A stretch of 64,000 nucleotides of DNA from Gemmatimonas aurantiaca T-27 (GTDB lineage: Bacteria; Gemmatimonadota; Gemmatimonadetes; Gemmatimonadales; Gemmatimonadaceae). Positions 4,536-9,742 of this stretch are shown here, piece by piece. The stretch is taken from positions 1,612,001 to 1,676,000 of the forward strand of contig NC_012489.1 of assembly GCF_000010305.1 (NCBI RefSeq). Reading direction: 5' to 3'. Position 1 is the first letter of the stretch; every line of letters starts with the position of its first letter. The translations under genes and the position numbers were made by a program. The notes beneath the pieces are model-generated. The model was not told the origin of the DNA. It saw nothing but the letters and a program-made list of their open reading frames with translations, and searched no databases.

Positions 4536-6245
4536 ATGTCCTTTCCTCAGCTTCCCAGCCGGCACGCGACGTCCGGCCCTGAACGTGCGCCCCATCGTGC
4601 CTTCTACTACGCGATGGGACTCACGGCGGAAGAGATTGCGCGCCCCATCGTGGGTGTGGTGTCGAGTTGGAACGAAGCGGCGCCCTGCAACATCGCGCTC
4701 AAGCGGCAGGCCGAAGTGGCCAAGCGTGGCGTGATTGCCGGTGGCGGCACGCCGCGGGAATTCACCACCATCACGGTCACCGATGGTATCGCGATGGGAC
4801 ATGCCGGCATGAAAGCGTCGCTGGTGAGTCGTGAAACCATCGCCGACTCGGTGGAACTCACGGTGCGCGGGCACTGCTATGATGCGCTGGTGGGTATCGC
4901 GGGCTGTGACAAGTCGCTGCCGGGGCTCATGCTGGCCATGGTGCGTCTCGATGTGCCATCGATCTTTCTGTTCGGCGGTTCCATCATGCCGGGGCGCTAC
5001 AAGGACCGCGATGTCACCGTGCTCGATGTGTTCGAGGCGGTGGGATCGTATGCTGCAGGCGGCATCACGCTCGACGAACTCACCGCACTCGAAAAGGTTG
5101 CGTGCCCAGGAGCCGGAGCGTGCGGTGGACAGTACACGGCCAACAGCATGGCCTACGTGTCCGAAGCGATCGGACTCGCACTTCCAGGCTCGGCGAGCCC
5201 TCCGGCGACGTATGAGTCACGTGATGCCTTTGCCGAACGGTCGGGCCAGGTGGTGATGGATCTCGTGCGCAGTGGACTGCGTCCGCGTCAGATTGTCACG
5301 CGCAAGTCCCTCGAAAATGCCGCGGCGGTTGTCGCGGCCACGGGTGGTTCCACCAATGCCACGCTGCACTTGCCGGCGATCGCGCACGAAGCGGGCATTT
5401 CGTTCGACCTGTTCGATGTGGCCGAGGTGTTCAAGCGCACGCCGCTGATCGCCGATCTCAAGCCGGGTGGGAAATATCTGGCCAAGGATGTGCACGACAT
5501 CGGTGGTGTGAGCATCGTGCTCAAGTCGCTGCTCGATGGTGGTTTCCTGCATGGCGACTGCATCACGGTGACCGGCAAGACGTTGGCCGAGAATCTGGCC
5601 GATGTGGTGATCCCGGAAAATCAGAAGGTGGTGATGCCGGTGTCGCAGGCCATCTCGCAGACGGGCGGTCTGGTGGGATTGCGTGGCAACCTGGCGCCCG
5701 ATGGTGCCGTGGTGAAGGTGGCAGGACTCAAGCACCTCACACACAGTGGCCCGGCGCGGGTGTTCGATAGTGAAGACGACTGTTTTGCGGCCGTGATGGA
5801 ACGGCGCTATACCGCCGGTGATGTGCTGGTGATTCGCTATGAAGGACCGGTGGGTGGTCCGGGTATGCGCGAGATGTTGTCCACCACCTCGGCGATCTAC
5901 GGGCAGGGACTGGGTGAGACTGTGGCCCTCATCACCGATGGCCGGTTCTCGGGCGCGACCCGTGGCATGTGCATCGGTCACGTCGGACCCGAGGCCGCCA
6001 TGGGCGGCGCCATCGGGTTGCTGCGCGATGGCGATATCATCGACATTGATGCCAGTGCCGGCACCTTGTCGGTACGACTCACCGACGAGGAACTGGTGGC
6101 GCGCCGCGCGGAGTGGACGCCGCGCAAGACCGACTTCCAGAGTGGGGCAATCTGGCGATACGCACAAACGGTTGGCCCGGCGCGCAATGGTGCGGTGGTG
6201 CACCCCGGTGGCAAAGCCGAAACGCACGTGTACGCGGACGCGTGA
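4536..6245 (+). CDS. ilvD: Dihydroxy-acid dehydratase
   Basis: IlvD dehydrates 2,3-dihydroxy-3-methylbutanoate and its isoleucine homologue to the 2-oxo acids, the third common step of branched-chain amino acid synthesis. The 569 residues match the short IlvD form. The three expected iron-sulfur cysteines are Cys51 ([10 protein letters not shown]), Cys124 (GCDKSLPG) and Cys196 ([10 protein letters not shown]). The C-terminal part carries [19 protein letters not shown], typical of the family. The ATG at 4536 gives the usual N-terminus; a longer open frame extends back into the previous gene but is not needed. No strong Shine-Dalgarno precedes the start. No other ilv gene is in the window, so the pathway is dispersed or the rest lies elsewhere. 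Confidence 0.95.
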
Positions 6246-6322
6246 AGAAAGGCGGCCGCGGATGCCGGTATGGAGGAAATCTCCCTGCCGGCTTTCCGTG
6301 CCGGTTGGCTCACATGGCCTCG

Positions 6323-6351
6323 TTGACAAACGCGGGGGGGGGGGGTACGTT
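6323..6351 (+). promoter_or_regulatory. Candidate phase-variable promoter with 12-G spacer
   Basis: A perfect TTGACA (6323-6328) is followed by AACGC, a run of 12 consecutive G (6334-6345) and then TACGTT (6346-6351) as a poor -10 match (3 of 6). The spacer is exactly 17 bases, and 12 of them are the homopolymer. It lies 47 bases before a start codon that has AAGGAGG seven bases upstream. Slipped-strand changes in the G run would alter the -35/-10 spacing, which is how several known phase-variable promoters switch. The -35 and the tract are seen directly; promoter activity and switching are inferred. Confidence 0.5.
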
Positions 6352-6398
6352 CGCGCTTCAATGATGTTCCCATCTAACTGCGCGAAGGAGGCCCGTTT

Positions 6399-6635
6399 AT
6401 GAATGCGATGCGAAGGATGTTGTTGTTGGCTACGGCACTGATGGGTGCGAGCCTCACATGGGGAGCACCTGAGGCTGAGGCTTCAGCGCGTGCGATTTGC
6501 GGCCATGTCTGTGTCAGTAGTTGTGGTGTGGCCGAGTCAGAATGCGCCGCGATGGGCTGCCAGGTGCTGTGGTGCGGAGGTACCTCCGATACCTGCTTCG
6601 GACCCAACCAATGGGCGGGTTGCGGTCCGCTCTGA
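6399..6635 (+). CDS. Small secreted peptide with eight cysteines
   Basis: The 78-residue product starts with a classical signal peptide (MNAMRRMLLLATALMGASLT) and a likely cleavage near ASA at residue 30. The mature part of about 48 residues holds eight cysteines at 34, 38, 42, 49, 54, 59, 66 and 75, spaced x3, x3, x6, x4, x4, x6 and x8, plus four Trp/Phe residues and many Gly. Such a density suggests four disulfides or a metal-binding knot; the even number favours disulfides. AAGGAGG lies seven bases before the ATG. I do not recognise a family. Just downstream are a membrane-anchored thioredoxin-fold protein and a large envelope protein, so the peptide may be a substrate of the first and a partner of the second. 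It could instead be a bacteriocin-like or signalling peptide. Confidence 0.75.
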   Translation: MNAMRRMLLLATALMGASLTWGAPEAEASARAICGHVCVSSCGVAESECAAMGCQVLWCGGTSDTCFGPNQWAGCGPL

Positions 6636-6663
6636 GCCTGTGCGGCCACGTGCTGGCTTTCCG

Positions 6664-6692
6664 ACGGGTCGTCTGGCAGTCAGGCGACCCGT
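6664..6692 (+). other. Intercistronic hairpin between peptide and thioredoxin genes
   Basis: ACGGGTCG (6664-6671) pairs perfectly with CGACCCGT (6685-6692). Four further inner pairs, one of them G-U, give a 12-pair stem with a 5-base loop. No T-run follows, so it is not a clean terminator. Placed 28 bases after the peptide stop and 81 bases before the next start, it could protect or partly terminate the short upstream message and so set the ratio of peptide to downstream proteins. Confidence 0.5.
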
Positions 6693-6773
6693 TGGGAATC
6701 AGGAATTCGGATTGTAATTCTCATTCGCCGTCACCGATCATGCCTTTGGTACGCGGTGGCGAAGGAGCAACAT

Positions 6774-7475
6774 ATGCACGCTGAGTCAAAGCCAGCGAAC
6801 TGGCTGTCGAGAACAACAGATGCCGGTTTGATACTGTTGGTGATGCTTATGGCTGTATTGCTGTTGCGACGCGAGTTCGGAGAGAGGGGTGGACAGGCGA
6901 CATCTTCAGACACTCGCAATACACCCACATATTCCGCGCTGGTCGACAGCAATACCACAACGGGCCACCTCTCAGGCAGCGTCGACGCTGTGGCAAAGTT
7001 TGTGGTCTTCAACGATCTGGAGTGTCCATTCTGCGCCGCCTTCCACAAGACTCTCGGGGAAGCACGGGCGAGGCACCGGGGATCCGTTTCCGTGAGATTC
7101 GTTCACTTTCCTCTCAATAGCCATCGGTTCGCCAAGCCCGCTGCGCTGGCCGTCGAGTGCGCTGGGAAGGTTGGCCGTTTCGATTCAATGGTCGATGTAG
7201 TTTTCAAGAAGCAGGACTCTCTTGGGTTGGCGAGCTGGCGATCTCTGGCTGCAGAGGCAAACGTGTCTCCTCTGGATGAATTTGAACGCTGCCTCGCGGC
7301 TGGTACTGGGCAGTTTCTTGACATCGAGGCGGGAGTGAGATTGGGCCGTTCTCTGAACGCTCCGGGAACACCGACAATCTATGTCAATGGTTGGAAGCTG
7401 CTTGCTCCACCCGATTCTTCTGAGATCGACGATATGATCTCGCGCATCCACAGTGGGAAATCGCCCGTTTCGTGA
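6774..7475 (+). CDS. Membrane-anchored DsbA-like thioredoxin-fold protein
   Basis: The 233-residue protein has one N-terminal membrane segment (about residues 18-31, GLILLVMLMAVLLL), so the rest should face the periplasm. A thioredoxin_4/DsbA-type domain follows, with active-site ECPFC (Cys84 and Cys87), and near the end a cis-proline loop, APGTPTIYVNG. The family forms, reduces or isomerises disulfides in exported proteins. The ATG at 6774 has GAAGGAG seven bases upstream; the longer frame from 6756 would place the start before that Shine-Dalgarno. The stop overlaps the next gene's GTG by four bases. By eye the GC content is lower than in the flanking genes (31 of 60 in one line against 40 of 60 in ilvD), a possible sign of transfer. 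Direction of catalysis (oxidase or reductase) cannot be told. Confidence 0.85.
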   Translation: MHAESKPANWLSRTTDAGLILLVMLMAVLLLRREFGERGGQATSSDTRNTPTYSALVDSNTTTGHLSGSVDAVAKFVVFNDLECPFCAAFHKTLGEARARHRGSVSVRFVHFPLNSHRFAKPAALAVECAGKVGRFDSMVDVVFKKQDSLGLASWRSLAAEANVSPLDEFERCLAAGTGQFLDIEAGVRLGRSLNAPGTPTIYVNGWKLLAPPDSSEIDDMISRIHSGKSPVS

Positions 7476-9742
7476 CATTGTCAACGCTTGACCTGAGATC
7501 GGCGCAGCTGCGGATGCTGTTGGTGATGGCGTTCGCAAGTCTCGTTCCTCGACTTGCTGCCACGCAATCGGTGAGTGGCACGGTGGTCACGGAGAGCGAC
7601 AGCAGTCCTGTGTCAGGCGCGGTCGTCTTGCTCGTTGCGCGAGAGAGCCAAAGGGTCTTGGCCAGTTCCCGTTCCTCCCAGTCCGGAGTATTCCGGTTGC
7701 CGGTGTCTGCCTCCGGCCTCTTCGTCATTCGGGTGCTCCGAATCGGAAATCGACCGTACGATTCCGAGCCCGTCGAGCTTTCGCTTGTTGCACAGCGAGT
7801 GATGCGCATTGTGGTGCCTTCGCAACCGGTGCAACTCGCGCGCTTCGATGTACGGGAGTCCGCACGGTGTCGACAGAACCCTGACACAGCGACACTGGCT
7901 GGCCAATTGTTGGTCGAAGCGCGAACAGCCTTTCTGTCGAGCGTCGCACGAGGAGCGGACGGCGAGCAGCGAGCACTCTATCGGTTTTTCCGATATGACA
8001 GGGATCGCCGAGGCGCGTCGGTGGGAGACACCGCATCCGATGTCCGTACGCGGCAAACGTCCCGCCCTTTCGCGAGCCTGTCCCCTGACTCCATCGATCG
8101 CGTGGGATATGTCATCGCCGATGGCGACAGTGTCGTCTATCGCGGGCCGGACGCGGACATTCTGCTATCGGAAGGGTTCGCGCGAGGGCACTGTTTTCAT
8201 GTCGTGGAAGGCAATGGCGTGCGAGCCGGACTGCTGGGCGTCGGGTTTCGGCCGATCGATATGCCATCCGGCATCGTGGGTATTCGCGGTACCATCTGGA
8301 TGGTCCCGGAAAGTCGCGAACTCCGTGACGTCGAATTCTCCTATCAGCCCATTTCGCGCGATGAATCGCAGGCCGGTGTCGGTGGTGAAGTGCGTTTTCT
8401 ACGCCTGCCCGACGGGAGTTGGCTTGTCCGAAGCTGGGAGTTACGAATGCCGCGTGTGCAGATGCGCCGCATCGCCCCCGTGCTGACGGGGCGCCCCATG
8501 CCGGGGCGCACTATTCGCGAGGTGGTGGGCACGCAGGTTTTTGGCGGTGCGGTGATTCGACTTGAGGGCGCCGGGATCATGTTTGCGGACACGACGGAAC
8601 TCGAACGTGCAGCGGCGGAGCGGGCTGCGCGCGCGACGGAGCGCGTGTTCACATTGCGGCACGATGTGTGCGGCCCCATCGCCGGTGGCGGCATCGATTT
8701 GAGCATCAAATCCGTCGGCGTGGCGGAAGGGCGACTTCGCGATTCGAGTGGAACGTCATTGGTGGACGTTCTGATCCGGGCCGACTGGCAATCGGATTTT
8801 CGCGTGGGTATCGACGAACGCGTGCGATTTCAGAATCGTGGACGCGAGACACGCACCGTGGAGGATGGGCGGTTCGTGCTCTGCGAACTGCCGTTCGATG
8901 TACCGATCTCCATTCGGGCATTGGTTGCCGACCGCGCGGTGGCTCAGCAGACGATACGCCTGAATACCGCCAAACCCGTCGATACACTCGCGCTGACAGG
9001 AACCACCAATCGGGTTGTGGCAGGCGGCGTGACTGCTGCAGAAACGCAAAGTGCCACTCTGCGCTTGCGAGTACTGGGAGAGCTTGGCGAGCCGCTGGCG
9101 GATGCCGAGGTCACCATAGTCGCTTCCGGCACCCCATCGGAAGCTGCCGTACGCCACCGTACGAACACCGACGGCCATGCCACTTTCGATGGCTTGAAGG
9201 CCGGCGCGGTGGAGATCGCGGTACGCCGCATCGGGCAGGCCATGCAGACCTTGCGTCTGGATATCGGCGAAGGGCGCAACGAGGCCACGATTCGCATGTC
9301 GCGTACGGCGGTGTCCCTCGATCCGGTGCGCACGATCGGCAACCGCGTGGTGAATGCGCGCTATGCAGAAGTCGATCGACGTATCAGGGCCGGTGTCGCA
9401 AATGCGGTCGTTGGACGTGTCGATTTCGAACGGGTGCGGCCGATCACGGTCACACAGATGTTGCGGCGTGTTCAGGGCATTCGGCTCGAAGATTCTTCGG
9501 GCACGACGATCATCACATCGGGAAGAGGTGATCGTATCACGCCGGGTGGCAGCAGACTGCCGTGTATTCTGCGGGTCATGGTCGATGGTGTGCTGTCCAC
9601 GGCGAGCCAGGTCGAGCGCCTGGTGCCGACGGACATTCACGCCATCGAAGTGTTTCTCGGGCCGGCACGCATTCCGCTTGAGCTGGGGGCCCGTTCGAGC
9701 GGGTGGTGTGGGTTGTTGGCCGTCTGGACGCGAGTGGATTGA
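7472..9742 (+). CDS. Carboxypeptidase-regulatory-like protein with C-terminal plug-like domain
   Basis: The start GTG at 7472 overlaps the previous stop, so translation is coupled. The 756 residues comprise a signal peptide ending near LAATQS, a first regulatory-like beta-sandwich (VSGTVVTESDSSPVSGAVVL), and a middle domain with a C-x-H-C-F-type motif (GFARGHCFHVVEGNG) and IRGTIWMVPESRELRDVEFS. A second beta-sandwich begins near residue 525, and the C-terminal domain resembles a TonB-receptor plug (LPCILRVMVDG, HAIEVFLGPARIPLE, WCGLLAVWTR). No beta-barrel follows, so it is not a complete TonB-dependent receptor. The same layout occurs in the protein ending at 16315. Likely an exported or outer-membrane protein; its ligand is unknown. 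Its coupling to the DsbA-like gene suggests their products act together. Confidence 0.75.
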   Translation: MTLSTLDLRSAQLRMLLVMAFASLVPRLAATQSVSGTVVTESDSSPVSGAVVLLVARESQRVLASSRSSQSGVFRLPVSASGLFVIRVLRIGNRPYDSEPVELSLVAQRVMRIVVPSQPVQLARFDVRESARCRQNPDTATLAGQLLVEARTAFLSSVARGADGEQRALYRFFRYDRDRRGASVGDTASDVRTRQTSRPFASLSPDSIDRVGYVIADGDSVVYRGPDADILLSEGFARGHCFHVVEGNGVRAGLLGVGFRPIDMPSGIVGIRGTIWMVPESRELRDVEFSYQPISRDESQAGVGGEVRFLRLPDGSWLVRSWELRMPRVQMRRIAPVLTGRPMPGRTIREVVGTQVFGGAVIRLEGAGIMFADTTELERAAAERAARATERVFTLRHDVCGPIAGGGIDLSIKSVGVAEGRLRDSSGTSLVDVLIRADWQSDFRVGIDERVRFQNRGRETRTVEDGRFVLCELPFDVPISIRALVADRAVAQQTIRLNTAKPVDTLALTGTTNRVVAGGVTAAETQSATLRLRVLGELGEPLADAEVTIVASGTPSEAAVRHRTNTDGHATFDGLKAGAVEIAVRRIGQAMQTLRLDIGEGRNEATIRMSRTAVSLDPVRTIGNRVVNARYAEVDRRIRAGVANAVVGRVDFERVRPITVTQMLRRVQGIRLEDSSGTTIITSGRGDRITPGGSRLPCILRVMVDGVLSTASQVERLVPTDIHAIEVFLGPARIPLELGARSSGWCGLLAVWTRVD

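Follow-up and report, generated by a model that had tools for sequence, protein, structure and literature searches.

A run of 12 consecutive G residues lies between the -35 and -10-like elements of a candidate promoter preceding a small secreted-peptide gene of Gemmatimonas aurantiaca T-27, and the question raised by this locus is whether such a tract tunes expression by changing its own length or merely fills the spacer of a promoter, real or apparent. Phase variation through promoter spacers is known mainly from host-adapted pathogens, and Gemmatimonadaceae, few of which have been cultured, are free-living bacteria of soil and water. Switches of this kind, if they recur on secreted Cys-rich peptide/thioredoxin modules of Gemmatimonadaceae, would mean bet-hedging of secreted products outside hosts. 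The window analyzed here is a 64-kb stretch (64,000 nucleotides) of the T-27 chromosome, covering 1612001-1676000 of its single 4,636,964-bp contig; the relevant features, in window coordinates, are as follows.

6264..6292, + strand: strong, terminator-like hairpin with a short U run only, just 3' of ilvD (stop codon 6243-6245); fold of 6246-6322, -40.3 kcal/mol, z -3.6
6323..6328, + strand: -35 element, a perfect TTGACA by sequence; sister promoters of related loci have the identical hexamer in the identical place
6334..6345, + strand: G12 tract, the putatively variable portion of the 17-bp spacer AACGC + G12 (6329-6345)
6346..6351, + strand: -10-like element TACGTT by sequence, abutting the tract end
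6385..6391, + strand: Shine-Dalgarno sequence AAGGAGG, by sequence
6399..6635, + strand: gene of a secreted 78-aa peptide (by sequence, a signal peptide followed by 8 Cys); no Pfam or NCBIfam model covers its family
6658..6698, + strand: intergenic hairpin with an 18-bp stem in the peptide/thioredoxin gap, z -4.0
6774..7475, + strand: gene of a DsbA-like thioredoxin-fold protein with an N-terminal membrane anchor (ATG 6774 with AAGGAG; Pfam Thioredoxin_4, E 8e-20; DSBA, E 7e-7)
7472..9742, + strand: gene of an exported CarboxypepD_reg protein with a plug-like C-terminal domain (Pfam CarboxypepD_reg, E 4e-20; Plug, E 0.011, below the cut-off)

The full string at 6323-6351 reads TTGACA AACGC GGGGGGGGGGGG TACGTT with a spacer of exactly 17, and re-reading the sequence found the anatomy given in an earlier sequence-only reading (TTGACA, 17 bp, 12 Gs, a weak TACGTT) to be exact. 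TTGACA occurs just four times on the + strand of the 64-kb window, whereas TACGTT agrees with TATAAT at three of six positions, and it is because of this weak -10 that a generic sigma-70 scan called no promoter at 6323-6351. The candidate sits in the 153-bp gap between the ilvD stop codon (6243-6245) and the peptide ATG at 6399. Like spacer-length phase-variable promoters of the porA/fetA kind, it combines a homopolymer of at least about 8 between recognizable -35 and -10 elements, a total spacing near the 17-bp optimum (shared with its tract-free sister promoters), at which a one-base change would matter, and surface or secreted products downstream, namely a peptide with a predicted signal peptide and 8 Cys and a membrane-anchored DsbA-like protein. 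The hairpin at 6264..6292 was not called by a strict terminator scan; its position after ilvD suggests a fresh transcription start for the peptide gene, downstream of the hairpin. With the comparison among relatives taken into account, TTGACA-AACGC-G12-TACGTT is very probably a promoter at this place.

Comparative evidence had to be gathered indirectly, T-27 being the one genome of its species in the set. The T-27 peptide matched no Pfam or NCBIfam family model, a homologue search at E 1e-3 returned nothing in 40 relatives, in wider genome contigs or in plasmids, and across the genus the region downstream of ilvD is conserved at the ilvD end only, leaving no direct orthologous tract. Relatives were therefore reached through the thioredoxin gene. 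Homologues of this gene are present in 37 of 118 Gemmatimonadaceae genomes, and 38 of 60 related loci carry, just upstream of it, a small signal-peptide protein with 6-10 Cys; peptide and thioredoxin therefore constitute a recurring two-gene module, the gene order of which is inverted in some loci. The module points to an apparently undescribed secreted peptide family paired with a dedicated oxidoreductase. Many different modules of this type occur in Gemmatimonadaceae (L111-L170), frequently followed by a CarboxypepD_reg or beta-propeller-like exported protein, and curated family models gave no match to the peptides tested. NVEALA-like modules of Bacteroidota have beta-propeller genes close to a secreted Cys-rich peptide, but as none of the models matched, a correspondence is not claimed.

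A search of 179 Gemmatimonadaceae genomes for TTGACA-N(0-9)-G9+ returned 22 distinct sites in 17 genomes, as compared with a single site for the reversed pattern (p 3e-6). By reading of the loci, 12 of these sites lie directly before peptide/thioredoxin genes and two before lipoproteins, in most cases with a -10-like hexamer where the run ends, three could not be assigned, and five look like chance (G161:C49, G129:C37, G175:C7, G096:C19 and G116:C62, being coding or too short in spacing). Examples of module promoters include TTGACA-AGTC-G13-ATACAG (G140), TTGACA-AGATGAT-G12-CAGGTT (G073), TTGACA-N9-G9-TAACGT (G068) and TTGACA-G-C9 (G112), with equivalent tracts among relatives spanning G9-G14. 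The C-tract counterpart, TTGACA + C9+, yielded seven sites, every one ahead of a gene whose product is exported, be it a peptide, a lipoprotein or, in one case, a beta-propeller-like protein; this enrichment is convincing for the full TTGACA only and weaker for TTGAC overall, with many chance sites in coding DNA. An unbiased check, with loci chosen by the thioredoxin protein alone, found runs of >=8 within the 200 bp preceding the peptide gene at 7 of 38 loci, as compared with 6 of 273 regions upstream of other long ORFs (p 2e-4). The rest of the order outside Gemmatimonadaceae showed no excess (four further forward sites vs. three control sites).

These counts bear directly on the explanation that the G run is a misread homopolymer next to a coincidental TTGACA. 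Homopolymers are indeed error-prone, TACGTT is weak and the promoter scan was negative, and the exact T-27 tract length could be off by one; but the excess of 22 sites over one reversed control and the matching gene context in independent genomes speak against chance or artefact. That the architecture exists is a point on which these comparative sequence data already contradict this explanation, which is highly improbable overall. The same results support the proposal of the sequence-only reading that a promoter with a homopolymeric spacer precedes a secreted Cys-rich peptide gene, given that this layout recurs in several genera and that tract-free sister promoters follow the form TTGACA-17-TAnnnT.

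The tract is also exceptional within its own chromosome. Pattern searches of the 4,636,964-bp genome found 101 G/C runs of >=7, 17 of >=8 and two of >=10, both of the latter exactly 12 long and intergenic, while the tail of this distribution, when extrapolated, leads one to expect 0.014 runs of >=12. Taken alone, shuffling the 64-kb window by dinucleotides is less impressive (0.88 nine-G matches expected per 64 kb); the surprise of G12 arises because the genome truly avoids such runs, an avoidance surmised earlier and borne out by the genome-wide counts. The second 12-mer (C12, 2564885-2564896) has a TACAAT on one side and, on the other, the start codon of a gene for an NtrC-type response regulator. 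Two genus relatives (G016 and G022) contain many clustered G runs of >=10, often at contig ends, which are possibly G-rich repeats or assembly noise.

Spacing offers a more specific view of what the tract may do. In 18 related sites, the hexamer that adjoins the end of the tract, or lies at it, had a mean -10-like score of 2.59 vs. 1.80 +/- 0.17 for shuffles, above all 2000 shuffles. In tract-free sister promoters, TTGACA and a 17-bp spacer are followed by TATTGT, TACAAC, TAACGT, TACACG or CACAAT, and TACGTT at 17 bp in T-27 therefore fits the module pattern. With -10 hexamers selected visually, and after exclusion of two tract-free promoters that lacked a recognizable -10, the spacing was exactly 17 bp in 5 of 5 tract-free promoters vs. 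2 of 12 tract-bearing ones, which range over 16-19 bp (p 0.003).

Such scatter bears on a second explanation, in which the promoter is real and the tract is a fixed spacer that acts through poly(dG).poly(dC) shape or twist or through factor recruitment, without switching. A scan of all phyla for TTGACA-G9+-TAnnnT found at least 116 stretches, and the architecture is therefore widespread, occurring in Clostridia, Bacilli, Spirochaetes, Saccharibacteria and others; among the matches listed (L301-L416), TATAAT is the commonest -10 and spacers of 18-19 bp are the most frequent, with a smaller maximum at 16 and none at 17. Both the breadth of this distribution and its 18-19 bp peak, which could reflect an effect of tract shape, would be compatible with a fixed spacer. 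But the Gemmatimonadaceae tract sites vary between 16 and 19 bp, C and G tracts are both in use and many sister promoters have no tract, and we regard a fixed spacer as unlikely.

Differences in tract length between homologous promoters were the other source of information. A near-identical upstream block of ~180 bp, duplicated in one genome (G001), has G9 in one promoter copy and G10 in the other, and orthologous thioredoxin promoters carry G12 (G044), G11 (G013) and G12 (G001). The comparison across relatives that the sequence-only reading had called for thus gave length differences between duplicated (G9/G10) and orthologous (G11/G12) promoters. The genus offers no orthologous tract after ilvD. 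Many of the relatives are draft genomes, and one-G differences between species may represent fixed divergence or assembly error. In G007, a C tract marks the ends of two overlapping contigs (C10 in one and C16 in the other), and a scaffold gap of G001 falls inside a C tract ahead of a thioredoxin gene; these assembly breaks may be technical. In addition, the duplicated block at L270 (G001:C55), consisting of the upstream gene end and the TTGACA-G9/G10 promoter, is joined to unrelated genes downstream, with the junction precisely at the tract, as though cassettes had been exchanged at this point.

A third explanation takes the tract as neutral: the spacer tolerates any sequence, and the G run grew by slippage without an effect on expression that matters. 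Spacers are weakly constrained, so that a tract could persist without function, and C12, the second 12-base run in this chromosome, is intergenic as well. Against neutrality, the tracts recur in several genera specifically at promoters that serve exported peptides, thioredoxins and lipoproteins, and a slip in a 12-bp spacer tract necessarily alters the spacing; this explanation appears rather improbable.

Phase variation, in which the G12 tract of T-27 would serve as a slippage-prone tuner, is accordingly graded as the probable working of this promoter, because scatter in the spacing is confined to tract-bearing promoters and the tracts of homologous promoters differ in length by a single G. 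Both the scatter and the G9/G10 and G11/G12 differences are what single-base slippage would predict. Polymerase slippage would add or remove single Gs in the G12 tract, and a slipped tract would shift the -35/-10 spacing off 17 bp or back to it; peptide expression, perhaps along with that of the thioredoxin and plug genes, would then be strong in some cells and weak in others, with the assembled 17-bp length as the strong state. The phase variation suggested earlier is thus likely, on a cross-locus comparison of sequences; for T-27 itself, we infer initiation of transcription at this promoter, the change of tract length within a culture and the effect of that change on expression.

Well-characterized pathogen systems provide close parallels for parts of this scheme. 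Neisseria meningitidis porA has a poly-G spacer (PMC7864442; van der Ende et al. 1995, as cited by PMC5320596), and its transcription drops once the spacing departs from the 17-nt optimum (PMC7864442). On that account, the G tract lies between -35 and -10 in both porA and T-27, although porA encodes an outer-membrane porin of a pathogen and the T-27 promoter precedes a secreted Cys-rich peptide gene of an environmental Gemmatimonas, where switching would be by analogy. At Neisseria gonorrhoeae fetA, a poly-C tract between -10 and -35 changes spacing and transcription, strains ranging from C10 to C14 (PMC5320596). It shares with T-27 a homopolymer in the spacer, and some Gemmatimonadaceae promoters also use C tracts, but fetA encodes an outer-membrane receptor and its strain-to-strain length variation is demonstrated, whereas variation in T-27 is putative. 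Treponema pallidum tprL and other poly-G promoters carry tracts of 7-11 that vary in length within isolates and affect activity (PMC7864442); the poly-G is inside the promoter, as in T-27, but the genes are unrelated and part of the Treponema promoters place the tract otherwise relative to the elements. At N. meningitidis opc, a one-base change in a poly-C tract of ~12 (11 to 12 C) alters expression (PMC3447861), but the opc tract is at the -35, as described in PMC7864442, whereas that of T-27 lies between -35 and -10.

The poly-G spacer architecture is therefore already known; the novelty lies in finding it repeatedly on the secreted Cys-rich peptide/thioredoxin modules that Gemmatimonadaceae carry. 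The literature searched, outside of which most subscription papers fall, contained no report of phase variation in Gemmatimonas or its phylum; it also held no expression data for the T-27 promoter, the sole paper naming both 'Gemmatimonas aurantiaca' and 'transcription start' being concerned with sigma-54. More tentatively, and with a little less than an even balance in its favor, these promoters may form a phase-variable regulon of Gemmatimonadaceae, in which many independently acquired poly-G/poly-C spacer promoters would switch some lipoproteins as well as secreted peptides rich in disulfides, each peptide having a DsbA-like partner of its own.

The earlier account of the coupling of the three T-27 genes needs a correction. 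The two genes after the peptide gene had been described as coupled to it, and this is accurate for the thioredoxin and plug genes, which overlap at 7472-7475, but the peptide gene is set apart from them by a 138-bp gap containing the 18-bp-stem hairpin. This hairpin (6658-6698) is possibly an attenuator or an mRNA stabilizer. Stems of >=15 bp recur in the peptide/thioredoxin gap of many relatives (L122, L124, L126, L135, L143, L144, L146 and L148).
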